In this document: positions 19,701 through 64,000 of the stretch, one piece after another
How the letters are laid out: the number at the start of each line of letters is the position of its first letter
How positions within the stretch are numbered: position 1 is the first letter of the stretch
Origin: Isoetes taiwanensis
Taxonomy: Eukaryota; Streptophyta; Lycopodiopsida; Isoetales; Isoetaceae
DNA length: 64,000 nucleotides
Reading direction: 5' to 3'
Assembly (NCBI GenBank): GCA_021234155.1
Contig: JAJEKV010000002.1
Coordinates: 17,484,041 to 17,548,040, forward strand
Translations under genes and position numbers: made by a program
Notes under the pieces: model-generated
Database searches by the model: none
What the model was told of the DNA's origin: nothing
What the model saw: the letters and a program-made list of their open reading frames with translations, nothing else

Positions 19701-20586
19701 CATTGCTTAACCCAGATTTTGACTTTCTTCATTTTGTCATTGAAGCACTTCATTGATTGATGTTGGCCAATTTTGGGCAGTGACAGATAAAAAGCTGTGA
19801 AATCTTGGCAAAAGGATTTCATTTGAAGCAAAGAAGTATTAAACTTAAAGGGAGTGTTCTTGCTTCTTGGGCCAACTTTCAGATCCTTAGTGTCAAGGAA
19901 ATGGGGCTGATGATCAGAAATAGTGCTAGCAATATCTCCAGTAACAATGCAATTGTCTAACCAGCTAGCAGAATTGTGGATATAAAATCTGTCCAGCATA
20001 CAAAAAGTCCTCTGGTCTCCTTTTCTCTTATTACTCCAAGAGAATTTGGTGTTCGAAGATGGGACATAGATTAGATCTTGGCTGGCCATCCAATTGTCCC
20101 AAGAATATCTCTCATTTTTGGACATGTTAATTTTGTTGCCAAGTTTCATATCACTGTGTGGGGTATTATTGAAGTAACCACCTAGTTCTCTACATGTTGG
20201 TGTTGATTCATCCAATTGTTGATTTCATGCCACATAGGCTCTCTTTCATAGGGGTCAGTTGAAGCATAGATGTTTATGAAGGCAACTTGACAGTCCTTAA
20301 TTTGGAGGGTGACACAGAGCCATCTGTTGGAAGGACTGATGTAAGTGCTAATTAACTTTTGGTTGTACCAAAAGGTAGCAATCCCCCCTTTAGTGCCATC
20401 AGCTGGGATATAGCAAGAGGCCATCCCAGGGCGGATCCAATCACCCAGATTTGCAGAGTCAAATTTGGGGAGTCTATGTTCTTGTATCATGATGATATCT
20501 GCCCTAAAACCCCTCACAGTGGCAATAAATCGTCTTCTTTTGGTGGGGCCCTTGATGCCCCTCAGATTCCAGGTTAAGATCCTCAT
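16705..20586 (-). pseudogene. L1 ORF2, endonuclease-reverse transcriptase (two frameshifts)
   Basis: Starts at the ATG at 20,586 (MRILTWNLRG), 33 bases after ORF1. The AP-type endonuclease comes first: the TWNLRG and MIQEHR motifs are present and SDHQP follows, but the usual GGDFN block reads GGYFN (about 20,164-20,185), replacing a catalytic Asp. Frameshifts near 20,185 and 19,430 cancel out. The RT is well kept, with KLDFKRAYD, RGVRQGCPLAPYLF and YADD (18,496-18,507). After LAGRILIANS comes a zf-RVT domain near the C-terminus (KVFSWLILHN, then Cys/His ligands in CQLC and HIFTC). The protein would nick target DNA and copy element RNA; this copy is very probably inactive. Confidence 0.88.
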
Positions 20587-20619
20587 AAGGGAAGATGAGG
20601 AGGAGGCACAGGGAGGAAC

Positions 20620-22917
20620 TTAATAGTTAAGTTTTTTAAGGCCATGAGGTGAAGCCTTACTTCGAGTATTATATATGTGGGAATTTTCAATGCTCCCAGG
20701 AGACTTGGTTAAGGCCCTACCTTTCATTTTCCTTTTTAAGGATCTGAGGGATGTATTGGAGATATCATGCAGAGGACTGCTACTCATGTCTTCCTCTGAG
20801 TCAGGCACAATTAGATCTGGTTGACTCTGGTCAAAGTTCTTGTCCATGGTATCAAGATTCAGCTGTAGAGCTTGCAAACCATTATCAATGCTCTCTTTTT
20901 CAGTATAGGTAGATTGGACAACATCACAACCAGCATCTGAGGTGGGGCTTATTTGCTGGCTCTGTGTTTGACTTGTTTGGGAGTCAGACTGTGTGCTCTG
21001 GCAAACAGGGGAATGCTCACTTACCTGAATCTCCTTTTCTTCAGCCTGTTTGCTTGTCTTGGGCCAATTTGCATCCACAGCTTCAGAGACTATCCTGCTC
21101 ATCAGGTCCACAGTAGACTTACCATATTTCTTATAGAGATCAGGCAAAGGAGTATGGTGAGAAGAGGGGATGAGTTCAGAGCCAAAAATGCAGACATTGG
21201 TATGATTGGATAGGGGGTCAACTGAGAGATCAACAAAGATTTGATCAGACATGAGGGGGAAGGTGGGGGTGGTGGGGGCTACTGTTATTGGAGGGATTGG
21301 AGTAGGTGATCCTGTTCCCTTGGTCTGCTGAGGTGTCTGAGCCATATCTTGTATGTATCCTTCTTTTCCTTGTGAGGTGAAGAGATCATTGAACTCCTCT
21401 TCAGAATCATTTGTAGAATCTTGTAAGACTTTGTATCTGTTACTGCACAGCAGGGGGGAGTTGAATTCCCCCTCTTCAGTCCCATAGACTGGTTTTACAG
21501 CAGAGTCCTGCCTTGGTGAAGTAAGTTGAGTGTCGACTATATCATCTTTGACCGGGTGTTCCTTGTCAGAGAATTCTGTAGTGGGAGATTGGTAGGAGAA
21601 ATAAACCTCTTCTTGAGTTCCAACCTCCTCATCTACAATCACTGTGACCTTGTCAAATTATACCTGTTCTGGTGGTTTGTGCTTATCAAAGGTTTTAACC
21701 ATAGTCGAGGGGTTAAATGAGACACCTTTGGTAATAACCCCTTTGTTTAAAACCTTCACATTACCTCTGGTAGAATGAGAGTCCCGTTCATGTGACTTCA
21801 GAGTTTCAACCAATTCCTTATTGGCTAAGGCAATTTTTTCCTTAATAATTTGTCTCCTCCGAATTCTTCTGGCGCTACCATTAAGATTGCCTCGATGGTG
21901 GGCAGTGACGTGTTCTACAATTGGGGCTTGCTCCACAGTAATTTGATGAGTAGATACTGGGGAGCATTTTCCTCCTCCATGCAAATGTTTCCTGCAGATC
22001 GGACAAACAGGAGGCAACCCATTCCACCTTAAGAGCAAGGATTGGTCAGTCCCAAACATATCCTGGAAAGTCAATTCAAGCGGGATAGGTTTGAGAAGGT
22101 CCAATTGTATAAATACAGTGGGAGGCCTGTCAGGTCTGCGTTCTGATGATATGAAGGAGCCAATTGGAGAAAATATGGTTTTTAAGCACTGAGGATCCCA
22201 GAAGACTGGATTCAAATCATGCAAGTGCACATAAGCAGTGTGCATGAGAGTAGTAGGCCTTAGAGGGTTGAACTGGTAAGTCCATTTCTGGAATTTGATT
22301 CTAAAGCCAAGATGAGTGAGATGACCCATCTTTAAAATATGTTCTGCATCTTGATCCGAGCAGAATTCAATCATGAAGTATGGAAACCGAGTCCAATAGA
22401 TAGCAGAGATTTGGATCGATTTAGATAATGCACAGATTTGTTTGGATATATTTCCTAAAATAATACCTTCTTTTTTGGCCCAGCAAATAACAGCATGCGA
22501 AGAGAGAAATTCAAATCTTGAATGATAGAGCTCAGGATTCAATTCAGTACCTCTGGAATGACGGTATGTCAGTGAATTATGCTTCTTCATGGTCAGAATG
22601 TCTTGTTTTATGGCATTATCTTCCTTGAAAGGTTGAGATCTCCGTATGAAGGTGTTGCTCGAGTTCGCATTCAGAGGAGCATAACAATCCCAGAAAGGTC
22701 TATCCGGGAAGGAAGATGGAAGAGCATTCTTTGGCGCCATCGTCGTTGGGATGAAGGTAGTGAATTCACTGAATTGAATCGGAGCTAGGTCTCCTTGAAG
22801 CAGCAGCTGTTGTTGGGCTAGGATTTCTTTTTGTTCATCAGAATTTAGGGAGCAGAAGGTATTTAAGATGGTGTGCATTGGGGGAGATAATCCGTCCGCT
22901 GGATCCGGTGGGTCCAT
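20620..22917 (-). pseudogene. L1 ORF1, gag-like RNA-binding protein (one stop)
   Basis: The frame opens at the ATG at 22,917 and would give about 765 codons. A single in-frame TAA at 21,658-21,660 splits it into 419 and 340 residues. The N-terminal part has an RNA-recognition/DUF4283-like region, followed by a canonical CCHC zinc knuckle, CPICRKHLHGGGKC (C-x2-C-x4-H-x4-C), at 21,964-22,005. The C-terminal half is low-complexity, Ser/Gln/Asp/Glu-rich and ends in a basic segment. In L1 elements this protein binds the element RNA and forms the ribonucleoprotein with ORF2p. The stop is probably a recent lesion, since the frame is otherwise clean on both sides. Confidence 0.85.
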
Positions 22918-41290: not shown

Positions 41291-42610
41291 GATGGGCAAA
41301 CATGGGCATGCATGGGGGCATGCACCACATCCCCAGACCGTTGGATCGAAAGGGGAGAATAAATCTTAACCCTTGATTTTTTGTAAGGAAGGTGCAGGGA
41401 AGGTGCTAAAATTTAAATTTGGTGTAGCAGATCTTAACCATTAGATCAAAAGGTGAGGATAAATCTTAGCCATTAACTTCTTAATATTAAATTAAGTTTT
41501 TTTTTTAAAGGAGGTGAGGTGTCACCCTCATTAATAAAAAAAAGAAGTGAGGTGGCAAAGCATTTATGAATGGACTTTCTAGGAAGCTTCCTTCCATTTA
41601 ATCGCCTTCAAAAGCACGTAGCTTGCAGTAGAGGGGTCGGCTGAAGGTGGGACCCATGCCATTGGATTCCTCTCATCGACAGCTTTCTAATGAGGGTGGT
41701 TTGGCAATATTTTGTCGCAGTTGGAGCCAACATGATCAAATACTAAGAATCTTCTTGGAATCTTCGAGTTTTAAGGAGTCTATGGTAAGTTGAGGGAATC
41801 TAGGAGAATCTTTATAGGATAGAGGAATATCATGAGAATCTTAGAGAATCTATGGGAATCTTAAGAGAGCATCCTTGAGAATGTAAGAAAATCTAGGGGA
41901 ATCTTGATAAACTTTTTAAGAACTTAGAGGAATCTTTATGGAATCTTGGGGATTCTAGGGGAATCTTCATAGAAACTATGGGAACTAGAGGAATCTCAAG
42001 AGAATCTATAGGAATCTCAAGCGATTCTTTGGGAATCTAGGGGAATATTCCTAAAATCTTTGAGAAATTAGTAATTTTGGTGGAATGTTGGAAAATATTC
42101 TTTTAAAATCTATGGAGTCTCAAATAAATCTTTGAGAATCTAGGAGAATCTAAAAGAATCTTCATAAAATCTTTAAGAATCTATGGGAGTCTAGATAGAA
42201 TCTTGGAGAATCTTCGTAGAATCTAGGAGAATCTTTGTAGAATTCTAAGGAATCTAAGAGAATCTTTGGGAATCTAGGATAATCTAAATGAATCTCAAGA
42301 GAATCTTTGAGAATTTAGGGGAATCTTTTTAAAATTTTTGAGAATCTAAGGGAATCTCGATGGAATCTTAGAGAATCTAAGAGAATTTTCATAGAATCTT
42401 GGGGAACCTAGAGGAATCATGTGATGATCTTTGGGAACCTAGGGGAATCTTCATAGGATCTTGGAGAATCTAGAGGAATCTCAAGAGAATCTTAGGGATC
42501 CTAAGGGAATCTTATAGAATCTTGGAAAACCTAAGAGAATCTACATGGAATCTTGGAAAATCTAGAGGAATCTTGGGATAATCTTTGAAAATCTAGGGGA
42601 ATCTCACCTA
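41291..42610 (+). repeat. 1.32 kb tandem duplication, copy 1
   Basis: Starts GATGGGCAAACATGGGCATG and repeats at an offset of exactly 1320 bases. It contains about 450 bases of ordinary AT-rich DNA and then a GAATCT array. Confidence 0.93.
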
Positions 42611-44560
42611 GATGGGCAAACATGGGCATGCATGGGGGCATGCACCACATCCCCAGACCGTTGGATCGAAAGGGGAGAATAAATCTTAGCCCTTGATTTT
42701 TTGTAAGGAAGGTGCAAGGAAGGTGCTAAAATTTAAATTTGGTGTAGCAGATCTTAACCATTAGATCAAAAGGTGAGGATAAATCTTAGCCATTAACTTC
42801 TTAATATTAAATTAAGTTTTTTTTTTTAAAGGAGGTGAGGTGTCACCCTCATTAATAAAAAAAGAAGTGAGGTGGCAAAGCATTTATGAATGGACTTTCT
42901 AGGAAGCTTCCTTCTATTTAATCGCCTACAAAGGCACGTAGCTTGCAGTAGAGGGGTCGGCCGAAGGTGGGACCCATGCCATTGGATTCCTCTCATCGAG
43001 AGCTTTCTAATGAGTAGTGGTTTGGCAATATTTTGTCGCAGTTGGAGCCAACATGATCAAATACTAAGAATCTTCTTGGAATCTTCGAGTTTTAAGGAGT
43101 CTATGGTAAGTTGAGGGAATCTAGGAGAATCTTTATAGGATAGAGGAATATCATGAGAATCTTAGAGAATCTATGGGGATCTTAAGAGAGCATCTTTGAG
43201 AATGTAAGAAAATCTAGGGGAATCTTGATAAACTTTTTAAGAACTTAGAGGAATCTTTATTGGGGATTCTAGGGGAATCTTCATAGAAACTATGGGAACT
43301 AGAGGAATCTCAAGAGAATCTATAGGAATCTCAAGCGATTCTTTGGGAATCTAGGGGAATATTCCTAAAATCTTTGAGAATTTAGTAATTTTGGTGGAAT
43401 GTTGGAAAATATTCTTTTAAAATCTATGGAGTCTCAAATAAATCTTTGAGAATCTAGGAGAATCTAAAAGAATCTTCATAAAATTTTTAAGAATCTATGG
43501 GAGTCTAGATGGAATCTTGGAGAATCTTCGTAGAATCTAGGAGAATCTTTGTAGAACTCTAAGGAATCTAAGAGAATCTTTGGGAATCTAGGATAATCTA
43601 AATGAATCTCAAGAGAATCTTTGAGAATTTAGGGGAATCTTTTTAAAATTTTTGAGAATCTAAGGGAATCTCGATGGAATCTTAGAGAATCTAAGAGAAT
43701 TTTCATAGAATCTTGGGGAACCTAGAGGAATCATGTGATGATCTTTGGGAACCTAGGGGAATCTTCATAGGATCTTGGAGAATCTAGAGGAATCTCAAGA
43801 GAATCTTAGGGATCCTAGGGGAATCTTATAGAATCTTGGAAAACCTAAGAGAATCTACATGGAATCTTGGAAAATCTAGCGGAATCTTGGGATAATCTTT
43901 GAAAATCTAGGGGAATCTCAAGAGAATCTTAGGAAATCTAGGGGAATCTAAGGAAATGTTTATAAAATCTTTGAGAATCGGGAGGAATCTTGATAAAATC
44001 TTGGAGAATCTAGGGGAACCTCCATAGAATCTATGGAAAGTAAGGAGAATCTACATAGAATATTGCAGAATCTAAAGGAACCTTGAGATAATCTTCAGAA
44101 ATGTAGGGGAATCTTTGTAGAATCTTAAGAATCTAGGGGAATCTTTCACGCTGGATGTGTTTTGAAGGGAAATCTTTCTTGCTAGGTGTGTTTTTTCATG
44201 GAATGTTGGAGAGTCTAGGGGAATCTTCATAGAATCAAAAGGAATCTAGGGGAATTTTCATAAAATCTCTGAGAATCTAAAGGAATCTTGATAGAATCTT
44301 AAGAATCTAAGGTAATCTTGATATAATCTATGGGAATATAGGAAAATCTACATAGGATCTTGCAGAATATAGAGGAATATTGGGATAATCTTTAGATATT
44401 TAGGAGAATCTTATAAGAATCTAGAGGAACCCCTAAGAATCCTTATTGAATCTTAGGGAATCTATGCAATATAATCTTATGGAATCTTATAGAATCTTAG
44501 GGAATTCAAGACAGCCTTAATGATATCTCAACGGATCAAGGAAATCTTGGAGAAATCCAA
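41745..44560 (+). repeat. Degenerate GAATCT short-period array
   Basis: About five occurrences of GAATCT per 60 bases. The period is irregular, roughly 10-13 bases, with typical phrases AGAATCTAGGGGAATCTT and CATAGAATCTTGG. The only interruption is the non-array start of copy 2 (42,611-43,065). There are no stable open frames. The strand is consistently purine-rich (GGAATCT/AGAATCT). Confidence 0.9.
42611..43919 (+). repeat. 1.32 kb tandem duplication, copy 2
   Basis: Nearly identical to copy 1, with a 12-base deletion near 43,260 and scattered substitutions. At its end the GAATCT array continues, whereas copy 1 jumps from GGGAATCTCA to the start of copy 2. Confidence 0.93.
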
Positions 44561-51540: not shown

Positions 51541-53210
51541 TGTGACGTTCCAACACAGTATACGGTCCCAGGACGTATACTGTACCGCCTCGTCACGCGT
51601 ACACGCCACCCCGACCGACGTGTACGTCGACGTATAGCCAGGCGAGTAGCCCCTAGGGGGCAACTTGCAAGGAGCGTGCATTTATTAATGTGCACATTTA
51701 ACCATGTGCACATTTATCTAGGTGCACATTTTCCCATGTGGACACTTTATGCCAAGTGGGCCATACCCAAGTGTGCAATTAATGTGCACATTTACCAATA
51801 TGCACATTAATGTGGGCACACCTTTCCATGTGGGCACATTTTGCCACCTAGCCATTAAAGGCAAGTGGGCCCATTCCCAATTATCCCACATGCCTAAAGG
51901 GGATAATTGGAAACCCTAGCCAACCCCTTGTCTATTTAGGAAGGGAAACCCTAACTTGCCCAATTTTCATTTCTAGGGTTTTAGAGCTCTGTTTTGGCTG
52001 CCCCAAGGGTCAAAACCGCCTCCCAGACTCTGTCTGAGAGAATTGCATCATTAGTTTCCCTTGATTCGAGCATTTCAGCAGGATGGTCGAACTCAGGTCA
52101 GGAGGAGGAACTCAAGGATCAGGTATTTCGTCAATTTAATAGCCTAAACCATCTTCTAGTCATTGAATCAGTAGGTTTAGCCTATTAAATTGCCCATAGC
52201 AACCCTCTAGATCTCTAGATATCGGACTTTAACTAAAGAACCTAACTCTATGATGTAGACTAGATTTAGTTCTTTAGTTCTTCTGTGATGTATATGGATG
52301 ATGTATCTCTATGAACTCCTTGTATTGGGAAGGGGGGTAGAGACCTAAAGCTTGGTAGTAGATGCTCCTAGATTAGCCTCTCTAGCACACTATAGATTCG
52401 GCCTGTGTACAAGAACCACACCTGGTTGTGGGTGAAGGAACCAGACTGGCTTACAAAGAGGTTCGTGTTCTGACTCTTGAACGATCTCTCTGGTGTGTAA
52501 TGTCTACCGGGGATCATTGAGACTAGGCCTAATGGCTTGCCACTGAGTGTGGGCAAGGCATGGGCTCGACACCCGTGGGGTGATGCGTCACTCTCCAGTG
52601 GGTTCAAGTCGAATAAGGGCAGTGGCCCTCTAGTCTCCTTGAGTCAGCATGTAGATCTCTGGAGGGAGAGATCCCTACCTGCCCCATCGGAACTGGGGAG
52701 ATGTAACCCAGGAATAGCCCCTTTGGCTATGCCTCCGGCGGGCTACAGTCAGGTCCCAACACTTTTCAGCCTACTCTGCAAAGTGTGCACAGGAGGGGCG
52801 GATGGAGTGGACAACCCGATGCCATGTTCTTATGCCAGCCAAATCCATTGCCATGAATTCTGTCTGCAATGAACTCTGGAGACCCAAGCCGCCAGTCATC
52901 CCACCGAGTCTGAGCCTTGGGTAGGGAATCCCCATATGCATTGTGCTGATCTTTGTCTATGCAGATGTGATGGACCACCCTTCGAGGTGGATATGTGATT
53001 GTGATGTATACTGACATGTATGTTTACGCTTCCGCAGCTAGGTAGGCCCTGAGGGAGACGGGGTAAAATGACCCCTTCATTCTTCCCACTGGGGACCCGA
53101 TACGGTCTCAGTGACATGTGGAGGGCCCTGTATCAGTGTGGAGCTGGTATGGGGGATGAACTCCTGTTTGTATACGGTGAGTGCACCGTATACGAGTAGG
53201 GGACGTCACA
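51541..53210 (+). repeat. 5' LTR of the Gypsy element
   Basis: 1670 bases, starting TGTGACGTTCC and ending GGACGTCACA: TG...CA with an 8-base terminal inversion (TGTGACGT/ACGTCACA). The PBS follows after one base. The U3-like part has a dozen short TGTGCACATTT-type subrepeats (51,677-51,850) and a self-complementary start (AGTATACGG/CGTATACT). A possible weak TATA (CTATTTAGG) lies near 51,930. The second LTR lies outside the window. Confidence 0.9.
51677..51850 (+). repeat. TGTGCACATTT subrepeats in the LTR
   Basis: Irregular copies of (A)TGTGCACATTT and GTGGGCACA separated by CCATG or CCAAG. They may be promoter-proximal motifs; no function is shown. Confidence 0.7.
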
Positions 53211-53211
53211 G

Positions 53212-53223
53212 TGGTATCAGAGC
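53212..53223 (+). other. Primer-binding site, tRNA-iMet
   Basis: TGGTATCAGAGC, the usual complement of the 3' end of plant initiator tRNA-Met, one base after the LTR. Confidence 0.95.
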
Positions 53224-53415: not shown

Positions 53416-53482
53416 GTCTCACACGTCGCGCCAGGACAGATAATGAGAATCTCATTTTCGGGCTGGGCGCAACGTGTGAGAC
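53416..53482 (+). repeat. 67-nt hairpin, copy 1
   Basis: Outer arms GTCTCACACGT/ACGTGTGAGAC, then GCGCC/GGCGC, with inner arm AATGAGA/TCTCATT around a single A. Exactly 67 nt, like its three relatives. Confidence 0.9.
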
Positions 53483-53628: not shown

Positions 53629-53695
53629 GTCTCACACGTCGCGCCAGGACAGAAAATGGACTTTCCATTATCGGGCTGGGCGCAACGTGTGAGAC
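53629..53695 (+). repeat. 67-nt hairpin, copy 2
   Basis: Same outer arms. The inner arm is AATGGA/TCCATT with loop CTT. It lies 213 bases after copy 1 and 78 bases before the TATA box of the H3-like gene. Confidence 0.9.
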
Positions 53696-53772: not shown

Positions 53773-53780
53773 TATAAATA
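53773..53780 (+). promoter_or_regulatory. TATA box of the H3-like gene
   Basis: CCCC-TATAAATA-GATC, about 100 bases before the ATG at 53,882. Between them lies GCTCTC...AAGGCGATCTTC (53,825-53,848), a leader motif repeated before the second extra gene. Transcription from here is inferred. Confidence 0.6.
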
Positions 53781-53881
53781 GATCTAGACCCTCCCCATTT
53801 CCGCGTCCCTTCCTTAGAAATCTGCTCTCTTTTGCCAAGGCGATCTTCTGGCGCATAGCTCGGATCGGCGAACCGTCGAAC

Positions 53882-55135
53882 ATGGCCCGGACAAAGCAGA
53901 CTGCTAGAAAGCCCCGCCGAGGCGAATCTTCCAGCGCCAGTGATCCCGCCCTGATTCAGAGGATACTCCAAGAACGCCTTTTCTGACAAGGCGAATCGTC
54001 ATCAAGTGAGGAGGCAGACTCGGGCCAAAGCGACGGAACAGAGGTCATAGGGGAGGAGCAGCCGGATGTCATGCACCAGATCCTCGAAGAAATCGCCGAG
54101 GAGGAAAGGAGGAGCAAGGAGGAACGGGAGCAGAAGGGACAGCCAACCGTCGAGGAACAACTCGAAGCTTGGGCCCGTCTGCAGGAAGCTGAGGAGAGGG
54201 AGGAGCAGCGGCAGCCGAAGCTTAGCCCTGCTGAAGAAGAAGACCTCGCGGCGTTCATCAGCAAGTATGAAGCCAAAGAGCACCGCCGAGAGAGGAGGAC
54301 GAAGAGACGGGAGGACGAACCTAGCACAGCCGGTGAGCCGAAGAAGAGGAAGGCCAAAGGCATTAAGGCGGGTAACAGAAGAGTTGTGAAGGTTGGTAAG
54401 CGAGGGCAAGGTCCCGTCATCAATGAGCCATCAGGCGAGCAGACCCCGCCTTCTACTGACGACTCGGACGAGGATTACGTCCCCAACACTGAGGGGGCAA
54501 GCTCTTCGAAACCCCCGGTCATGGAGAAGGAAGTACCTGAGCAGGTGGCACCAGAAGAGGAGCAGCCCGGGCAGGCGCCGAAGCCCCCACCTTTCCCGAC
54601 GTGGGATAGAGTTAAAGCCCCGCGACCACAACGGGAGGCGTACGTGATAGACCCCGTCAAGGTCTATCAGAAGAAGATCAAGGAGCACAATGCCTACATG
54701 GCAAAGTGGGAGGCATACAACGCTTACTACCAGGAGCACAGGGTGAGAACAATTGAAGGCGGACACCCGACAAAAAGCCAGACCCTGAAGCCGCCGCCAC
54801 CCAGGCCCAAGCCCCCCAAAGCCCCAGGAAAGAAGCGGACCAAGAGCAAGCAGAAGGAGCAGAGAGCCCTCAAGGAAATCCGGCACTTCCAGCGAAGTTA
54901 CGGACTCTTGATCCCCCGGGCACCGTTTCAACGCTTGGTCCGAGAAGTCATGCAGGAGTACAACACGGACATGCGGGTGACCGATGAAATGTTGCTATGC
55001 CTACAGGAGGCAGCAGAGGCGAAAATAGTGCAGCATTTTGAGGATTCGACGGCCTGCACAGTTCACAAGAAGAGGGTCACGCTCATGAGGTAAGATATGC
55101 ACTTAGCTAGACACATCAATGGAGAACGCCCTTGA
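53882..55135 (+). pseudogene. Histone H3-like protein with long internal extension (two in-frame stops)
   Basis: The frame would encode about 417 residues. Residues 1-10 are MARTKQTARK, identical to the canonical H3 tail through K9 (H3 numbering); residue 10 is Pro, not Ser. Then comes an insertion of about 300 residues: Glu/Arg-rich coiled-coil-like, a basic patch (EPKKRKAKG), an acidic DDSDEDY stretch and a Pro/Lys-rich linker. From about residue 325 a complete H3 fold follows: alpha-N (ALKEIRHFQRS), PFQRLVRE, a loop 1 of canonical H3 length, LQEAAEA, FEDS, KRVTLM, and finally DMHLARHINGER, the H3 C-terminus. By hand about half of the fold positions equal canonical H3. In-frame TGA (53,984-53,986) and TAA (55,091-55,093) interrupt it; both flanks stay in the same frame. 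It lies inside a Gypsy element. Incorporation into nucleosomes is inferred, not shown. Confidence 0.9.
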
Positions 55136-55279: not shown

Positions 55280-55346
55280 GTCTCACACGTCGCGCTAGGA
55301 CAGAAAATGAGAATCTCATTTTCGGGCTGGGCGCAACGTGTGAGAC
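55280..55346 (+). repeat. 67-nt hairpin, copy 3
   Basis: Same outer arms. The inner arm is AAAATGAGA/TCTCATTTT, nine base pairs. Confidence 0.9.
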
Positions 55347-55469: not shown

Positions 55470-55536
55470 GTCTCACACGTTGCGCCAGGGCAGAAAATGA
55501 ACTTTTCATTATCGGTCTGGGCGCAACGTGTGAGAC
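55470..55536 (+). repeat. 67-nt hairpin, copy 4
   Basis: Same outer arms, but here T replaces C after CACGT, which restores a pair with the opposite A. The inner arm is AATGAA/TTCATT with loop CTT, a compensated change relative to copy 2. Confidence 0.9.
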
Positions 55537-55726: not shown

Positions 55727-55735
55727 TATAAATAG
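55727..55735 (+). promoter_or_regulatory. TATA box of the second extra gene
   Basis: TATAAATAG preceded by CCCCTTTTC, 113 bases before the ATG at 55,849. The leader motif TTTGCTCTCC...TTAGGCGATCTTC follows at 55,767-55,795, matching the one before the H3-like gene. Confidence 0.6.
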
Positions 55736-55848
55736 ACCCCCCATTCCTCATTTAGCACCCTATAAGTTTGCTCTCCACTGCTTAGGCGATCTTCCAGCTC
55801 CCTGAGGCGCTTCTGCATCCGTTTGTTACTCTCTTCTTCGCTAGATCA

Positions 55849-57324
55849 ATGGCCACTGCTGACTTCAGGCGATGGTACAGCGCCAGTGCCCATGCTGCTG
55901 AGGCGGATGTCAATGACATCTTCCAAGTCTTTGGGAAAGAAATAGATATCCAAGCCACGCTGAATGCAACCCCAGCATATAGACAAGTCTTAGCAGAGTT
56001 CCAAGCTAGGGTAGGACCCTCCCTCGTCCAGGTCCCCCCTTGCATAGGATATTTTGTTCCCCGCCCATCCCTTCAAACAGCCTTGGGTGATGTCCCGAAC
56101 ATCGCCAAGTACTTAACTAACAAGGCGCAGAGGCTGCCAGACTACATGGTTCTGACAGCTAACAGGACCAAGTATTTCTCCTACACTGCCGCCCTAGCTA
56201 TTTTCCTTTCCCACCGCGCCGAAAACCCAATGGGGGCAACATCTATCCCTCCGATGGAGGTGGACCCCATAGCAGTCCAAGCGGAAGAGCAGATGCTTTT
56301 GCAGTACCAGCAAGAGCAAGAAGGAAGGGAGGAAGAAGAGGAGTCGGACGACTTAGAGTACACCGAGCTAGACTCAGAGGAGGAACGGCGACAAGCAGAA
56401 GAGGAGCTGGTCAACTTCGAGCAGAGCCGGCAGAACATCAGAGTTGCTCCCCCACTTGGGCTAGGCATCACAAGCCTAGCCCCTATCATCATCGACGGAG
56501 AGGAGTATCTACTCCTCAGTGACATCCAGAACCTCCCTGAATGCAGGGAGAGGGAGCTCCGATTGGATGAACTGCTCCACCAACTATGGCAGTCCGACTT
56601 GGACGACTTCATCGTCCGAGGAGCCTCGGACTTTCCACTTCAAGTCAGGGAAGCCGACACCTACACAGGGGAGTCAACTTCCGACATCCAGGCCTACAGC
56701 AACATCAGGCAAATGATGGAAGAGCGAGAGCTGCCAACGGAGGAGGAGTTCCTCGCCCTCCAGGAACAGATGGGGATCCGCGGGAAGACCACGAGCATCT
56801 TAATGCCCAGGCCTTCGACACCACCTCCAACAAGAGGAGCAGGAATCGACCTCAGGCGAGTCGACTCCACAATTGAAGACTACCGGGACCTCACTGAGAT
56901 AGAGGTCGACGAATACGCCGGGCGGCATAGAGCTGGAGGCCAAACAAGTGGAGAATCATCCGCGACGCACAACGACAGGTCGCTGAGGTACTACCTGCCA
57001 CTGCTGCTAGACGGGAGAATAGCGGTGATACACCGCAAATTCAGCCCCCGGGGTGAAGAAGGAGTGTTCATGCTGATTGCACTCTCAGGCTTCGGCAGGC
57101 ATGCTCGAATAGCGGCAAATGTCGACTATGCTGTCCTAGTGAAGAGAGCAATGGCACTTGACCTCTTTGACTTCGCCATACCCCATCGACGGCAGGCAAG
57201 ATTGGCGGTGACCGCAGCCTTCACATCCGACCGCAGGGTGGGAGTTGGCGAGAGCCTTGCAGGGCGGCTCGTCAGCAAACGTCCTCAGGAACTTGGGTCA
57301 TTCGGTAGGAACGACCCAAGTTAA
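55849..57324 (+). CDS. Unknown 491-residue accessory protein of the Gypsy element
   Basis: An intact open frame starting MATADFRRWYSASAHAAEAD. I recognise no family. Residues 1-140 look globular (Ala/aromatic-rich, FSYTAALAIFLSHRAE). Residues about 150-200 are strongly acidic (EEEEESDDLEYTELDSEEE) and helix-prone. A middle part follows with IIIDGEEYLLLSDI, then a C-terminal globular part (RYYLPLLLDGRIAVIHRKF, VFMLIALSGFGRHARIAAN). It lacks CCHC, DSG, RT or DDE motifs, so it is neither standard gag nor pol. After about 57,265 another frame stays open to 57,381 (ending KKFLEDNPSYRRFQDYLDS), so the original C-terminus may differ by a frameshift. Its promoter module duplicates that of the H3-like gene, which hints at a related role. 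Confidence 0.75.
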   Translation: MATADFRRWYSASAHAAEADVNDIFQVFGKEIDIQATLNATPAYRQVLAEFQARVGPSLVQVPPCIGYFVPRPSLQTALGDVPNIAKYLTNKAQRLPDYMVLTANRTKYFSYTAALAIFLSHRAENPMGATSIPPMEVDPIAVQAEEQMLLQYQQEQEGREEEEESDDLEYTELDSEEERRQAEEELVNFEQSRQNIRVAPPLGLGITSLAPIIIDGEEYLLLSDIQNLPECRERELRLDELLHQLWQSDLDDFIVRGASDFPLQVREADTYTGESTSDIQAYSNIRQMMEERELPTEEEFLALQEQMGIRGKTTSILMPRPSTPPPTRGAGIDLRRVDSTIEDYRDLTEIEVDEYAGRHRAGGQTSGESSATHNDRSLRYYLPLLLDGRIAVIHRKFSPRGEEGVFMLIALSGFGRHARIAANVDYAVLVKRAMALDLFDFAIPHRRQARLAVTAAFTSDRRVGVGESLAGRLVSKRPQELGSFGRNDPS

Positions 57325-57381: not shown

Positions 57382-57592
57382 ATCCCGGAGACTTTTGTAC
57401 TAAAATATTATATAATATATGAATATAATTTCTTTTGCACTTTAAATGTTTTGTTGATACATTTTGTCCCACAACTATACCAACAAACATAAATAATGCA
57501 AGAGAACAAGCTAAAACTAACCATATAGCCATGAATTACTTGTGTATGCAGCTAGAGGCCTAGGCTCAGGGGAACAACAACGCCGAGACCAC
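57382..57592 (+). other. Spacer before gag, with splice-acceptor-like site
   Basis: AT-rich (TATTATATAATATATGAATA) and ending TTACTTGTGTATGCAG at about 57,551, a plausible 3' splice site 42 bases before the gag ATG. Gag could be translated from a spliced genomic transcript that skips the two extra genes. No hairpin pair precedes gag. Confidence 0.4.
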
Positions 57593-58944
57593 ATGGAAGA
57601 ACAGAGTCCGCCCAGGCCACCCCCGGCAAGGAACCTGTTTGAGGAATATGGACCCATAACCCCAGAAGAGGAAATATCACAGATGAGGACAGACCTTGAG
57701 CAGATAAAGGCTTTGCTGGCCGCACAAGCAGGAGTGGGTTCGGTGGCCAATGCTCAGTTGCCTCAAGCATCAGCTCGGAAAACAGGAAGGGACAAGAAGA
57801 AGAGCAAGAGAAGGAGGTCCTCCAGCTCGGACTCCTCCGACTCAAGCTCGGACTCAGACTCCGACTCCGAGGAAGAGGAAGAGCAGGCCCAAGACTGTAG
57901 AGATGCAAGGCAGAGGGTTACAATAGATGGAAGGCAGAGGGACACCCCAGATAGACGACAAAGAGACACAAGAGCCTCTGACTACCAGAAGAAGGTAGAC
58001 TCTGCTTTGGGAAATGTTTGGAAGGCCAGGAAGCTCGAGCAATTCTCAGGTGAGAACAGGTCAGGCATGGAGGCAGAGGCTTGGCTCGATGAGATGAGTG
58101 AGTACGGCAACGCTTATAGTATGAAGGATAAGGATAAAGGCAGGGTGGCAACAGCCAACCTGAAAGGAGCAGCACGCATTTGGTGGAAAGGGTACGCAAA
58201 GGCCCATGGCTTGAGCAGGGATGCTTGCAGGTCAAGAAGTTTGCTAAAGCCTTCAAGCGCCACTACGTCCCAAGAGAGCACAAGTCCAGCATGATGCAGC
58301 AGTTCTACAGGTTGCAGCAAGGCAACAAATCAGTCCAGAAATATACAGAGGAATTCATGAGGCTAAGGCTGTATGTGCCAAAGTTGGGTGAAACGCATGC
58401 AGTGGAAAGCTATATTGAGGGGCTGAATGATGAGATCCGCAAGCTTGTAAGGGCAATAAACCCTAAGACATTATCAGAAGCGGAGTCCAAGGCAATAAGC
58501 TTGCAAGGGACGGGGCCTCAGAATAGTGGGCAGAGGCAGCAGCACTTCCAGGATAAAAGCAAGGCAACAGGGAGTTATAGCCCTAGGGCAGCCAGTCCAA
58601 GCCTAGCTAGAGCCCCATATGGCGGCAACCAGGGGAAGCAGCACGAGAAGAAGCAGGTGTCCTTCAAGGACAAGCAGGTTGGGTCAAACTACTCCAAAGC
58701 AGTGCGATCCTTTTTGCAGGCTATGCCCAAGGAGAAGAGGCAGGAGTGTATAGAAAAGCAGCTTTGCTTCAGGTGCTTCCAGCCAGGCCATAGAACAGCG
58801 AACTGCCCCTACGTCATGAGTGCAGCACTAGCGGAGTTGGGAGATTGGGACACCCTGTCCGACGACGACGGCGAGGCAGCCCGCGACTACATTCAGGGTG
58901 AGTGTCATATCTTTGCCGCAATAGATACAGAGCAAGCAGAGAGT
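57593..58944 (+). pseudogene. Gag polyprotein (one frameshift)
   Basis: Begins at ATG 57,593 (MEEQSPPRPPP). Residues about 20-50 are a helical segment (EEEISQMRTDLEQIKALLAA), then a Ser/Asp-rich low-complexity stretch (57,820-57,890), then the retrotransposon gag domain (LEQFSGENRSGMEAEAWLDE, ARIWWKGYAKAHG). A single frameshift near 58,205-58,225 changes frame. The domain continues with FAKAFKRHYVP and QQFYRLQQGNKSVQKYTEEF. The CCHC zinc knuckle CFRCFQPGHRTANC is at 58,765-58,806. The frame closes with a TAG at 58,945. Gag forms the virus-like particle and packages RNA. Confidence 0.85.
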
Positions 58945-58947
58945 TAG

Positions 58948-60804
58948 TATAAGGTAATTTCCACAGTAGGGAAGGCCAAGGCCAAGTCTTTCATAGTCCT
59001 GATAGACTCAGGAAGTAGCCATAATTTTGCATCCCCAAGGATGGTAGAAATGTTGAAGTTGAAACCACTGAAGTCGAAGCCGAGGCCCGTTGTTTTAGCA
59101 AGTGGAGCAGTAAGGCAGACAGCAGGCAAGAGGATCAACTTCGACATCGATTTACCAGGGATTAACATCCAGATGGGGGCAGAAGTAATGGGCATTGGCA
59201 AGTATGACTTGATCATAGGAATGGAGTACCTTGGACCAGCAGGGGCCATCATTGATTGTGGAAAGCGGAAGGTGACCTTCCCAACGCCCGACGGCAAGAT
59301 CATTGAGATCACAAGTAAAGAAGTTGTTCCCATCATGCAGTGTATGTCTTAACGGCTGTTCAAGTGCATCAAGAGCGAGCAGGTAGCATACATCTTCAAG
59401 CTTGAGATGGAAGAGCCGGAGTCAGAAGAAAGCAAAGAAGACAAAGTGCTCAGCAAGTTGCCGAAGCAGATAGCCCAGTTGATCACGGAGTTCCACGATC
59501 TCTTCCCTGACGAGATCGAGCACCTCCCTCCTTACAGGGGAGTCGAGTGTGAGATAGCACTCGAACCGGGAACGAAGCCGACAAGTAAGGCTCCATACAG
59601 AATGACGACGCAGGAGTTGACGGAGCTAAAGAAGCAATTGCAGGAGTTGCTCGACCTAGGCTTCATCAGACCTAGCGTCTCGCCATTTGGAGCGCCCATT
59701 CTTTTTGTCAAGAAGAAGGATGGCAGTTTGAGAATGTGCATAGACTATAGGCAGTTGAACAAGCACACCATCAAAAACAAGTACGCGCTTCCCAGATCGG
59801 ATGACTTGATGGACCAGCTTCAAGGAGCAAAGGTCTTCTCCAAAATCGACTTAAGGTCAGGCTATCATCAGATCCGGATAAAGGAAGAAGATATTCATAA
59901 AACCGCTTTCAGAACGTGGTATGGGCATTATGAGTTCACGGTAATGCCTTTCGGCTTATCGAACGCCCCCGCGACGTTCATGAGGCTCATGAACGACATC
60001 TTCAGGGAGTTCTTGGACACCTTTGTGATTGTATTCTTTGACGACATTTTGGTGTATAGCAGATCCCTTGAAGAGCACGTACAACACTTAAGGAGAGTGC
60101 TAGAGAAGTTGAAGAGGCACCACTTGTACGCCAAGTTGTCGAAGTGCCACTTCGCAACGGAGAAGGTGGAATATCTTGGTCATGTGATCTCAGCAGAAGG
60201 AATTTCGACGGACCCTTCCAAGATTGAAGCCGTCATTCAGTGGCCGGCACCGAAGAATGTGCATGAGGTTAGAAGTTTTCTCGGCCTAGCAGGGTACTAC
60301 AGGAAATTCGTGAAGAACTTTGCTAAGATAGCGGCCCCGCTAACAGACTTGACGAGGGCGGAAAAAATGAAAGATTGGGCAGATCATTGGCACAAGAAAG
60401 CCCAAAAGGGCTTTGAAGTGTTAAAGGAAGCTTTAACGACCGCCCTCGTCTTAACCCTGCCAGATCCAGAGAAAGATAAGCTTGTGGCGACAGATGCGAG
60501 TAAGATAGCCACAGGTGCAGTGCTCATGCAAGAAGAGCGTGTAGTAGCGTATGATTCCAGGAAGATGAACGACGCCGAAACCCGCTACCCCACGCATGAT
60601 CAGGAATTGCTTGCGGTTGTCAGGGCATTAAGAATTTGGAGACATTACCTTTTGGGAAGGAAGTTCCAATTGGACACAGATCATCAGAGCCTCCAGTATG
60701 TATTCACGCAACCACACCTTAACCTGAGGCAGAGAAGGTGGATGGAGTTCCTTGAAGAGTATGACTTTGATATAGTTACAAGCCAGGGAAGCTCAATGTG
60801 GTAG
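58948..60804 (+). pseudogene. Protease, reverse transcriptase and RNase H (one stop)
   Basis: In the same frame as the second part of gag, directly after its TAG. The aspartic protease has LIDSGSSHNF (DSG at 59,005-59,013) and later IIGMEYL. An in-frame TAA at 59,350-59,352 follows. RT then runs from about 59,560: [45 protein letters not shown] and the catalytic FFDD (60,034-60,045, for the usual YVDD or FIDD). After [11 protein letters not shown] comes RNase H, with [18 protein letters not shown] and LDTDHQSL. The frame is lost near 60,775 by what looks like a one-base change, just before the integrase frame. All catalytic residues are present. Confidence 0.9.
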
Positions 60805-62381
60805 CGGATGCGCTTTCAAGGTATCCCCTGACAACTAGAGTGCATTGCAATGCAATTTCGACGCTTTCCAGCGACTTTGGTAAGAAGATTGAAGAATCCT
60901 TGCCAACAGATGTGGATTTCAAGGAAGTATGGGCAAGCCTGTCTAGGGAGGCTAGAACAGATAAAGAGCGGGAGGCTTTCAAACATTATAAGAAGGAAGG
61001 CAACCTGTTATACCATAAGAACAAGTTGTGCGTGCCCGAATCATCAGGTGTAAGGAAATTGATCCTCCATGACACGCACAACAGTCCAATAGCTGGCCAT
61101 GCGGGATTCATGAAAACATATTTCAAAGTGCGCAGCAGCTATTATTGGCCAGGAATGAAGAAGCAGGTAGCTCGCTACATCAAGGAATGTCAGCTATGCC
61201 AGCAGACGAAGGCAGAGCAGCTTCGAATTCCAGGGGCATTAGAACCATTAGCGGTGCCAAACGCTAAGTGGAAAGTAATCAGCATGGATTTTATAACAGG
61301 GCTTCCAAGGACAGTAAGAGGGAAGGATGCCTTGATGGTAGTGGTCGACAAGTTGTCGAAGATGGCACATTTTGTGCCTTGCAGGACCACAGATACCGCT
61401 ATGGATACAGCGAAGCTCTTCACCAAAGAGATCTTCAGGCTTCATGGCATGCCAAGGGAGATTATCTCCGACAGGGATCCGAAGTTTATGAGTGCCTTTT
61501 GGCAAGACCTCTTTGCGACAATTCAGATGAAGCTATCCATGAGCACGGCGTATCATCCTCAGACGGATGGCCAAACGGAGCGGACCAACAGGATTTTGGA
61601 GGACATGCTACGAAACTATGTCTGGAATAAGCAAGGTATATGGGAAGAATTTATTCACTTGGTGGAGTTTGCATACAATAGCACCAAGCAGGAATCATCC
61701 CAAATGTCGCCGTTTATGATCAATTACGGCTATCAATGCCTAACTCCAGACACCTGGCACAATCCCGTGTCAAAAGTGGAAGTTTCGCAGCAGATGTTGG
61801 CCGATATACAGCAGCTGGTGGAAGAAGTTCGAGGATATCTCCTAGCGGCAAGGAGTCATCAGAAGAGCATCGCCCACAATCATCGAACAGTTAGAGAGTT
61901 CCAAGTTGACGACCATGTTTGGTTGAAGATCAAGGTAAAGCAGGCGAAGCTCAGGATCGGGAATTGCAAGAAGCTTGCTCCAAGGTGGGCTGGACCTTTC
62001 AAAATAGTCCAGAAAGTAGGTAATCAATCCTACAAGCTAGATTTGCCACCATACCTAAAGATTCATAAGGTCTTCCACGTGAGTTTGTTGAAGAAGCACA
62101 CTCCAAATCCAGACGAAGTCTTGGACACTCCAACGTTGTTGGAAATGACGGAGGAGCAGCTGGAAATAGTTCCAGAATTGATTCTTGATAAAGCCTTCAA
62201 GAAAACAAGGAGATCAGAGTTTCTCCAATACTTGGTCAAGTGGAAACACTTGCCAGTGGAAGATGCGACGTGGGTACTTAAGAAGGACCTATTAAAGCAG
62301 TACCCACGGTTTATGGAGCAATGGGACGGCAAGGTCATCTCCGAAGAAATCGGCTCAGGCATGTCGATTTGTGTAGATTAA
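60798..62381 (+). CDS. Integrase with chromodomain-like C-terminus
   Basis: A 527-codon open frame continuing pol. The apparent first Met is internal to the family motif VVADALSR, so it is not a true start; the protein would be made as part of Pol if the upstream frameshift were absent. The HHCC zinc domain uses H94, H101, C131 and C134. The catalytic core has [15 protein letters not shown] and [12 protein letters not shown], giving the DDE residues. Next is a GPF module ([12 protein letters not shown]). At residues about 458-510 there is a chromodomain-like segment ([26 protein letters not shown]). It has the VKW and TW core but lacks some cage aromatics, like the divergent group of Gypsy chromodomains. 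Integrase inserts the cDNA; the tail usually guides it to marked chromatin. Confidence 0.9.
62189..62330 (+). other. Chromodomain-like module
   Basis: Encodes [16 protein letters not shown] and flanks. It fits the chromo fold (beta strand with VKW, then DATW, then an alpha helix). Not all histone-methyl-lysine cage residues are evident. Confidence 0.65.
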
Positions 62382-62397
62382 TCATTGTATAGCCATT

Positions 62398-64000
62398 CAC
62401 TAAAATAATAGCCACTATGCTTGAGCAACGGATTAGTCTTTGGACAGAGACAGAAGGCAAGAGAAGTATCTTTCAGGCTGGTTTCAGGAAAGATTATAGC
62501 ACACTCGATCATGCACTGGTGTTGAGGATCTTGTTTGAAAAGGCAAGAAGGCCGAGGCAGTCACTATATCTTGCATTCGTAGACTTCTCGAAAGCATTCG
62601 ATATGGTGCCACGAAAGAATTTAGACGTGAGAATGGAAGAACTAGGAGTGCCATTTAATTTGAGAAGCTGCGGTAGCTCAACTCTACTCGGAGGTCGATT
62701 AAGATTGGCAAATGGGGGGATTAATCGAGCTTCTTAGCACTATTGGGGTGAGGCAGGGGTGCCCGCATTTGTCTCCTACGCCTCTTTGGTTTGTACATTG
62801 TGGCTGGATGAATGGTTAAGACAAAGATGCTTGGCGTGAACCGATCTAGGGGGTTATCTCGTGCAGTTATTGATCTATGCTGATGACGTAATACTTATAT
62901 CATCTACAAAGGAAGGGTTCAGGTCTATGTTAGACATGCTTTCAGAATTTTGCATGAAGAAGGAGATGCGGGTCAACCTGACCAAGACCAAGGTGATGGT
63001 GGTCGGAACTAGAGAACGGCCAGAATTCGCCAGTTACAAGGGCCAGATAGTAGAGACAACGGAGGTATACAAATACTTGGGATTGGAATTTGAATCGAAA
63101 TATTCATGGAAATCTGTGTTGATAAGAGAGTCAATGGGGGAAAAACGCTCTTCGCATGATGATGAGAAGTTGTTGGCGTGCTAATTTAAGAAGCTGGCCG
63201 CTGCGCAAAATGCTTTTTAAATCTCTGGTTCAGACCATTGTGCTGTATGGCTCGCCAATTTGGGGGCCCAATTTGTCCTCGAAGCATTGGCAAAAGATAG
63301 AGCAAGTTCTTAAACTGTTTCTGCTTGAAGAATTTGGGGTGAAAACCCAGACGCCGTACGCTATGCTTCTAGCTGAGGCGGGTTTGCTTCCTTTAGAAGC
63401 CGAGGCCTTATACCAGACGATAAACTTTGTGAATCGGTTAGAGCTGCAATCTGAACTCAGGCTGTCAAAAAGGGCATTAGAATGCTCCAGAAGCTCTGGC
63501 TGGTGGCAGGAAGTGTTAGCGTGGGCAGCCAAGTGGGGTATTACCCCAGATATTTGGCCGGAATCAGTGCTCGGTGCAAGGGAACTGGTACAAGACAAAG
63601 TGGTAGAGAGACTTTGGTCTCATAAGGGCAGTCGTATGACAAAGTATACTGAAGAGGTAAACCCAATGTTGACATATATGGAACCCGATTATGTGAAGGC
63701 GGACTTGTCTAAGCATAAGAAAGCGGACTATTGCCGGATATAGATTGAGCTCCCACCACCTTATGGTGGAAATAGGGAGATGGAAGGGAATTCGAGGGAA
63801 GGCGAGGGAAATGTCCCTTCTGCACCCTTGATGCTATTGAGGATGAGAAACATGTCTTCATTGAGTGTCCGGAGTATGTACATATAAGAGAGAAATTTGG
63901 CATATATCAATCTCAATTGGACAGTATTTTCGAGTTGGAGCCACACATCCTTGGTTGCTTTGTCAAGGAAGTGGACTCACACCACTCATTATTGATGAGT
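62398..64000 (+). mobile_element. LINE copy D, truncated by the window edge
   Basis: A 5'-truncated non-LTR element starting inside RT (LEQRISLWTETEGKRSIFQA). It continues with FVDFSKAFDMVPR, a decayed GVRQGCPxSP-like part near 62,745-62,770, YADDVILIS (62,875-62,901, intact YADD), YKYLGLEF, and a 195-codon frame (63,156-63,743) with LVQTIVLYGSPIWGPN. The Cys/His end (CTLDAIEDEKHVFIECP) lies at about 63,815-63,870, and the sequence then leaves the window. Several frameshifts and stops occur. It is of the same type as copies A-C. It sits directly behind the Gypsy integrase gene and probably separates it from its 3' LTR. Confidence 0.85.

Follow-up and report, generated by a model that had tools for sequence, protein, structure and literature searches.

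Introduction

Carriage of a histone H3 gene by a mobile element is already known from hAT DNA transposons of fungi (PMC3538342, PMC6710886). The available part of the first source describes 26 copies of a captured H3, with ESTs, in hAT elements of Pyrenophora tritici-repentis, 23 of which are potentially coding as cited in PMC6710886, and the accessible text of the latter reports capture of H3 by hAT DNA transposons in six Mycosphaerellaceae. No LTR retrotransposon with a histone was found among the results listed from the open-licence PMC literature; this agrees with an earlier note on the present DNA, whose author knew of no such element, H3 capture being published for the fungal hAT transposons. 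A screen of 121 angiosperm genomes passed 15 extra domains through its filter, and in the available portion of that paper the word 'histone' occurs twice, never as such a domain (PMC9289625). The word is absent from the main text of a study of giant elements (PMC6431247) and from the accessible part of a study of additional ORFs in plant LTR elements (PMC7264820).

Chromodomains of plant chromoviruses are classed by the residues of their aromatic cage, for which criteria are given in PMC3350952 and PMC6317226. The available sections of both papers call the binding partner of the cage-less chromodomains not known, and those of PMC6317226 describe such chromodomains as general among seed-plant chromoviruses. 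Here we describe a chromodomain-bearing Ty3/Gypsy element with an H3-like gene, found in the window, that is, the whole stretch of 64,000 nucleotides of Isoetes taiwanensis DNA that was analysed.

Architecture of the element

The element comprises a 5′ LTR, a primer binding site (PBS), the H3-like gene, a second accessory gene (ORF2) encoding 491 residues, gag, reverse transcriptase (RT) and RNase H, and an integrase with a chromodomain, and extends to position 62381 (Table 1). The claim of the earlier note that the H3-like frame lies between the PBS and gag of a Gypsy element was borne out, and the element can be assigned to the Ty3/Gypsy chromoviruses because RT-RNase H precedes an integrase with a C-terminal chromodomain. 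The PBS, TGGTATCAGAGC, is of a type that we take to be tRNA-Met. In addition to the 5′ LTR and PBS of the window, an LTR pair is present in another copy, and LTR stretches of the copies L047 and L050 match the whole of the window LTR (51543–53209) at 93%. No second LTR copy was found within the 64-kb window, in which a sequence resembling a LINE reverse transcriptase by eye (62380–64000) cuts the element off after the integrase. A second LINE-like reverse transcriptase sequence, also recognised by eye, lies on the reverse strand at 16705–22917, and a 1.3 kb tandem duplication (98% identity) occupies 41291–43920 as part of a larger array of repeats that have diverged.

Table 1 Features of the H3-bearing element and their positions in the window.
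Feature	Position	Strand	Basis or remark
5′ LTR, TGTGACG...CGTCACA, about 1.67 kb	51541..53210	+	ends read from sequence
Primer binding site TGGTATCAGAGC	53212..53223	+	sequence; exact motif in 12/16 sister-family loci
Hairpin A, first leader module	53416..53482	+	RNA fold −39.8 kcal/mol, z −8.75
Hairpin B, first leader module	53629..53695	+	RNA fold −39.5 kcal/mol, z −7.65
TATA box-like TATAAATAGA	53773..53782	+	motif search; 109 bases upstream of H3 start codon
H3-like gene, 418 codons, two internal stops in window copy	53882..55135	+	Pfam Histone; present family-wide
Exact H3 N-terminus MARTKQTARK	53882..53911	+	frame translation; dN/dS 0.011 (17 copies)
H3 histone fold, 88 codons	54866..55129	+	57% identical to host H3
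Hairpin A, second leader module	55280..55346	+	RNA fold −40.6 kcal/mol, z −7.67
Hairpin B, second leader module	55470..55536	+	RNA fold −45 kcal/mol, z −9.41
TATA box-like TATAAATAGA	55727..55736	+	motif search; 122 bases upstream of ORF2 start codon
ORF2, 491 aa accessory protein, fold unassigned	55849..57324	+	frame between H3 and gag
gag, two overlapping frames in window copy	57542..58947	+	second frame Retrotrans_gag 4.8e-13, Ty3_capsid 9.1e-13
Reverse transcriptase + RNase H	59407..60804	+	RVT_1 8.4e-41, RT_RNaseH 1.1e-34
Integrase with C-terminal chromodomain	60798..62381	+	Integrase_H2C2 2.4e-20, rve 9.7e-10, Chromo 3.4e-10

The window copy is damaged outside the H3-like gene as well, gag being split over two frames, the first of which had no Pfam match, and stops being present in the protease stretch. 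ORF2 matches nothing in Pfam, even at E values up to 10. Among 7998 candidates scored, it has a single homologue (P0121, 46% identical over 95%), and the AlphaFold model computed with this one homologue has a mean pLDDT of 36. The ORF2 of copy L045 is recovered in three pieces of 92–96% identity, and distant relatives of 21–27% identity occur in 10 of the 16 sister loci described below.

In the alignments the integrase chromodomain of the query has no aromatic residue directly ahead of the first strand, keeps the tryptophan (W) and carries a leucine at W+3. It lacks two of the three aromatic-cage residues and is of the type II (cage-less) kind, in which the first and usually also the third of these residues are absent; thus, the integrase is not expected to read its own K9-methylated H3. 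The named relatives of the integrase are from the fern Adiantum, from entries with PITA codes (presumably pine), from the alga Closterium and from several flowering plants; with the types of PBS and chromodomain, they indicate a streptophyte as host. In the integrase tree the window sequence and P0126, the latter 77% identical over half of the query, form a deep branch of their own.

The H3-like protein

The H3-like gene opens with MARTKQTARK and closes with a full H3 fold, all in one frame, and the start, the fold motifs and the coordinates are as the earlier note had read them. The frame of the window copy is interrupted by the stops TGA at 53984–53986 and TAA at 55091–55093, ahead of the terminal stop at 55133–55135. 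A chance open frame was considered and rejected, since first-order Markov copies have 12.7 stops (sd 3.5) where the 418 codons have three, a count reached by 3 of 5000 such copies.

The earlier note had proposed Pfam and AlphaFold analyses of the translated frame, and both support its assignment. The Pfam Histone model matches the stop-free portion (54071–55090) at 2.5e-23 and the read-through frame at 6.2e-28. The same stop-free portion matches H3.3 of the PDB at 1.1e-21, and the best 60 of the 174 PDB matches are all H3 chains. Modelled by AlphaFold with a residue in place of the stop, the C-terminal 149 residues reach mean pLDDT values of 90–97 at residues 81–149 of this piece, from the end of alpha-1 to alpha-3, and lower values of 71–80 in the alpha-N stretch. 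Foldseek comparison of this model returned nucleosome entries throughout the 50 matches listed. Placed side by side with rice H3 the fold shows 48 identical residues out of 88, and its BLAST alignment with the H3 relative P0007 is gapless, so that loop 1 has the canonical length that the note had assigned to it. By Pfam, PDB, BLAST, AlphaFold and Foldseek alike, the protein has an H3 fold with canonical loops. Some likely DNA contacts are altered relative to rice H3 (Arg63 to Pro, Phe84 to Val).

The proposal that the protein is nearer to H3 than to CENH3 holds loosely. The listed PDB matches are H3. Loop 1 has no insertion, the alignment with H3 relatives is gapless and the tail has an H3-type start, unlike the longer loop 1 and divergent tail of CENH3, and the fold tree, which is weakly resolved, does not group the window family (F1) with the row named Cse4 (P0098). 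Against this, F1 occupies a long branch of its own in that tree.

The canonical H3 tail of about 40 residues is not present. Only the first ten residues are canonical, and an arm of about 328 residues precedes the fold in the window family, in keeping with the expansion of about 300 residues that had been suggested. Kinship of the arm with the long-tailed H3 proteins of the protein search was rejected, the best E value among 114 of their tails (taken from the best 120 of 155 matches) being 1.6. The N-terminal parts of F1 and of the three sister families F2–F4 likewise gave nothing at E ≤ 1e-3 against these 114 tails, and relatives sought in scans of viral contigs were not found.

Many of the 'ena' proteins in the range P0003–P0120, which carry no annotation, have H3 folds behind unrelated long N-terminal arms, and several of them open with MARTKQTARK (e.g. 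P0006, P0013, P0034 and P0048). Four of the 120 proteins listed (P0036, P0055, P0102 and P0116) run past the end of H3 into extra peptides, which presumably correspond to the animal histone 3′ stem-loop. The long-armed 'ena' proteins may represent long-tailed H3 genes that arose separately in animals.

Copies in the host genome

The genome from which the window derives (1.66 Gb in 1110 contigs) was searched with the H3-like protein and with RT; the first-look candidate counts given here are loose and are not copy numbers. With the H3-like protein, 119 places (the window included) were scored of 15368 first-look candidates, at 74–100% identity. The matched stretch contains a stop in 37 of the 120 scored rows and is stop-free in 83, which answers the question of the earlier note whether uninterrupted copies exist. 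With RT, 91 of 40007 first-look candidates were scored, at 93–100% identity, and every fifth by rank, the window excluded, was taken to give 18 copies, in each of which 2.4 kb was read at the expected place of the H3-like gene. Two of these 18 RT-chosen copies are also rows of the H3-like protein search.

The H3 fold is at the expected place in 14 of the 18 RT-chosen copies, in two of which it is cut by the stretch or shortened, and no H3 fold was found in the stretch read of the other four (L054, L067, L068 and L070). An exact MARTKQTARK is present in six, two more match at nine of the ten residues, both with a change at K9, and in the remaining copies the start is more decayed or cut. The LTR pair of another copy has 13 mismatches over 1510 aligned bases, one inserted stretch aside, and thus at least that one copy is young; the 3′ LTR is absent from two of the three stretches taken for dating. 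The H3-bearing family is apparently large and recently active.

Selection on the H3-like gene

Twenty copies of the window family were sampled, 17 of which can be read without interruption from a start of the MARTKQTARK type to the fold; since all 20 were drawn from stop-free rows, this proportion is not a family-wide rate. The three copies dropped (L025, L028 and L042) are without an open frame from a recognisable start. The 17 copies yield 136 pairs, for which dN/dS, another of the analyses that the earlier note had suggested, was computed by the method of Nei and Gojobori. The ratio is 0.171 for the whole gene, 0.200 for the arm and 0.091 for the fold, and in each of the three dN is the smaller value in all 136 pairs. 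For codons 1–10 it is 0.011 (dN 0.010, dS 0.958), with dN below dS in 112 of the 115 usable pairs, 21 of the 136 having been omitted as saturated or too short. The dS of these ten codons is not below that of the other parts, and therefore the constraint acts on the protein. The start pattern conditions codons 1–6 of the ten-codon estimate and leaves codons 7–10 unaffected, and among the latter there is a single change in the 17 copies. From R2 to K9 the 17 sequences are invariant except for one change at K4 and one at A7, and none of them has a serine as H3 residue 10 (proline in 16, threonine in one).

Choosing copies by similarity lowers dN, and the RT-chosen set, in which H3 was irrelevant to the choice, serves as a control. 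Twelve of its 14 folds were used, L062 and L066 being cut and left out, and stops lie inside two of the twelve (L063 and L069). The fold dN/dS in this set is 0.113 at a high dS of 1.37, with 37 of 66 pairs usable and 29 omitted as saturated or too short; dN is below dS in all 37. The window copy keeps every fold position whose conservation reaches 95% or more among 54 other H3-like proteins (17/17), compared with 34 of 70 other positions, a result favoured somewhat by the gathering of the 54 proteins through similarity to the query. Among the unchanged residues are R69, R72, R83, C110, H113, K115, R116, T118, D123, L126 and I130, which we take to have roles in the nucleosome; for all of these but K115 and I130 the roles would lie in H3–H3′ pairing and in contacts with DNA and H4. 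A simulation of neutral drift was mildly informative, the stop count being ordinary and the substitution score being met in 0.55% of 2000 runs. Natural selection preserves the H3-like gene across the copies, and this purifying selection is strong.

Sister families

A search with PF00125 in which the best 150 of 8705 first-look candidates were scored, all past the cut-off and host H3 genes included, provided 16 sister loci, picked for long open frames. Host H3 genes at eight loci are canonical. All 16 sister loci contain an H3 fold, the exact PBS motif lies ahead of it in 12, and gag, RT or integrase lies behind it in 14. Their proteins begin with MPRFKLT or MSRFKLT in F2, with an ME...QVYKRKPR-like sequence in F3 and with MANTKSA in F4. 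The identity of the fold to host H3 is 83–86% in F2, 88–89% in F3, 88–89% in F4 and 45–59% in F1. F2, F3 and F4 share a common N-terminal domain at 29–37% identity (E down to 1e-41) that was not found in F1 by BLAST at E ≤ 1e-3, and outside the histone fold none of the four family proteins has a Pfam match reaching the cut-off. The fold dN/dS is 0.039 in F2 (8 copies; L022, with a late-starting frame, lies outside this estimate) and 0.021 in F3 (5 copies); the pairs omitted in F2 as saturated or too short were 5 of 28 for the N-terminal part and 1 of 28 for the whole gene. The RT of five sister loci has a dN/dS of 0.046.

The fold tree separates a clade of F2–F4 (96/98) from one of F1 (100/100), with unsettled bootstrap values. 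The RT tree unites all 13 H3-bearing rows in a single clade (100/100) in which F1 lies outside F2–F4 (100/99), and the F2 and F3 sequences are intermingled with moderate support. A single capture of H3 in the ancestor of F1–F4 is the simplest explanation, two separate captures being a less simple alternative. Comparison of L017 (F3) with L018 (F2) shows 81% identity at the LTR end and 86% over the aligned gag-pol, whereas the stretch from H3 to ORF2 is unalignable except for 273 bases of the fold at 73%. This disparity, together with the mixing of F2 and F3 in the RT tree, suggests that the 5′ cassette is exchanged between elements or diverges very fast. A second pol lineage, considered for L012 and L017 on account of their low RT identity, was rejected because DNA alignment reveals close relatives with broken frames.

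Leader modules

Two copies of a leader module, one before the H3-like gene and one before ORF2, each consist of a hairpin A, a hairpin B, a TATAAATAGA box and a start codon. The four hairpins are 67 bases each, with 26 pairs intact in all four and two pairs changed on both sides, a count of double-sided changes that 120 of 500 shuffles of these only four sequences equal. The copies L045 and L046 share the gene order of the window; L045 lacks most of RT and has the exact PBS motif, which is absent from L046. The sequence TATAAATA is located 109 bases upstream of the H3 start in L045 and 112 in L046, and 122 bases upstream of the ORF2 match in both, such that the TATA box precedes both genes in all three window-family copies inspected. 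Exact hairpin 5′ arms number four in L045 and three in L046, and the exact hairpin arm motif is absent from all 16 sister-family loci. Rfam matches at the hairpins were below gathering scores only. The hairpins may be promoter elements, RNA structures or sources of small RNAs.

Proposed role of the H3-like protein

Hosts silence retrotransposons via histone H3 marks, and the preserved H3 gene suggests a chromatin protein made by the element itself. The reading that we prefer, to which we give a probability of about 45%, is that the protein is an element-owned H3 variant that would reside in nucleosomes and present an H3 tail or another domain there, probably acting against silencing. A chromodomain Ty3/Gypsy lineage would have taken up an H3 gene that became a standing part of the element, placed between PBS and gag, and is probably transcribed from its own TATA promoter beside the LTR transcript. 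The product would pair with host H4 and join nucleosomes as an H3 variant, its long flexible arm bearing a payload, which would be the unmodified H3 N-terminus in F1 and another conserved domain in the sister families. A fold that is constant behind a variable preceding part favours such a nucleosomal variant with a payload. Against it count the low identity of the F1 fold to host H3, the altered DNA contacts, the stops in two of the twelve RT-chosen folds and the four RT-chosen copies that had no fold in the stretch read. New or unintegrated element DNA, or its surroundings, would thereby receive an H3 that has K4 and K9 but few sites for tail marking; in the F1 tail, writing and reading of K4 and K9 would still be possible, while the switch at S10 and the stretch K14–K36 are gone. 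The likeliest use of an altered H3 would be to blunt or redirect host silencing. Anti-silencing fits the sequence data as one of several such uses, which we would rank, as a guess, with blunted silencing on element DNA first, a decoy for H3 writers and readers second and a tether for integration third. A further suggestion, which we regard as doubtful, is that the histone fold is a delivery device whose payload is swapped by exchange of H3-ORF2 cassettes among elements whose LTRs and gag-pol are closely alike, which would give element copies a private type of chromatin.

Among the other readings, it is possible but unlikely that the protein acts outside nucleosomes as a soluble decoy, titrating the writers and readers of the H3 tail (K4 and K9 enzymes or H3 chaperones) and so weakening silencing. 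Codons 1–10 are indeed the most constrained part of the gene in the window family, and the replacement of residue 10 in every copy would remove the phosphorylation switch that S10 of H3 provides; a decoy does not account for the strong conservation of the fold, nor for sister families that have the fold without the H3 N-terminus. We consider it slightly less probable still that the protein, carried on integrase or Gag, tethers the pre-integration complex to chromatin or H4 in place of reading by the chromodomain. The cage-less integrase chromodomain would suit a tether, but there is no sign of an interaction, and cage-less chromodomains are described for seed-plant chromoviruses at large, with no H3 gene mentioned for them in the available text of PMC6317226. 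Compaction of element cDNA or RNA in particles, in the manner of the histones of giant DNA viruses, appears improbable. Viral histones exist (PMC9145170, in its accessible part), yet the six element frames scanned contain a single H3 fold with no H4, H2A or H2B match beside it, and this role is difficult to reconcile with an arm whose 316 residues include 61 acidic and 58 basic ones.

Readings in which the gene does nothing fare worse. A functionless captured H3, comparable to transduplicated host genes, could explain the two stops of the window copy, the stops in 37 of 120 rows and the four RT-chosen copies without a fold in the stretch examined. It is contradicted by the selection data, namely the excess of dS in every pair for arm, fold and whole gene and in every usable RT-chosen pair, as well as by conservation of the gene across sister families, and a bias mimicking selection would need to hit codons 1–10 and the fold while affecting the arm less; we give this passenger explanation very little weight. 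Insertion of a host H3 pseudogene in the window copy only, which the earlier note had opposed to its own reading of an element gene, was rejected and retains a negligible probability: the 119 matching places, the gene order of other copies and the fold in 14 of 18 RT-chosen copies refute it, and the related elements, whose lack of the gene would have favoured it, carry the gene.

If the nucleosomal H3 variant is real, an H3 supplied by the element with residues 1–10 frozen and most other tail sites gone would be a direct move in the silencing conflict. Through its many copies the family is a natural and highly replicated test of the importance of each part of the H3 tail, and it may give a lead on the partner of the cage-less plant chromodomains. 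When H3 variants are counted in large plant genomes, some of the genes counted may belong to elements.

Comparison with known systems

Plant chromoviruses with type II chromodomains resemble the window element in the missing cage residues of the integrase. No H3 gene is mentioned for them in the available parts of PMC3350952 and PMC6317226, and the window lineage with P0126 is a separate deep branch. An orchid Ty3/Gypsy element with an AlkB-type RNA demethylase is a similar case of a plant Ty3/Gypsy that gained a host epitranscriptomic gene, the cargo there being an RNA demethylase and not a histone, as far as the accessible text of PMC9289625 describes it. DNA viruses with a single H3 are alike in that a selfish genome has its own H3, in some cases with an extended N-terminal tail; according to the available portion of PMC9145170, these H3 proteins are 73–87% identical to host H3 and one extension has 68 residues.

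The hAT elements of Dothideomycetes are DNA transposons, in contrast to the LTR retrotransposon of the window, which is built on LTRs and RT in place of the terminal inverted repeats and transposase of a hAT element, and in which the six element frames scanned gave no hAT match at E ≤ 0.001. In the accessible text of PMC3538342 and PMC6710886 no long added arm is described for the hAT H3 copies, and those of the Mycosphaerellaceae are inactivated. Nonetheless, as far as the available sources describe the fungal elements, the two systems are alike in that a mobile element acquired the coding sequence of an H3 and spread it in many copies.
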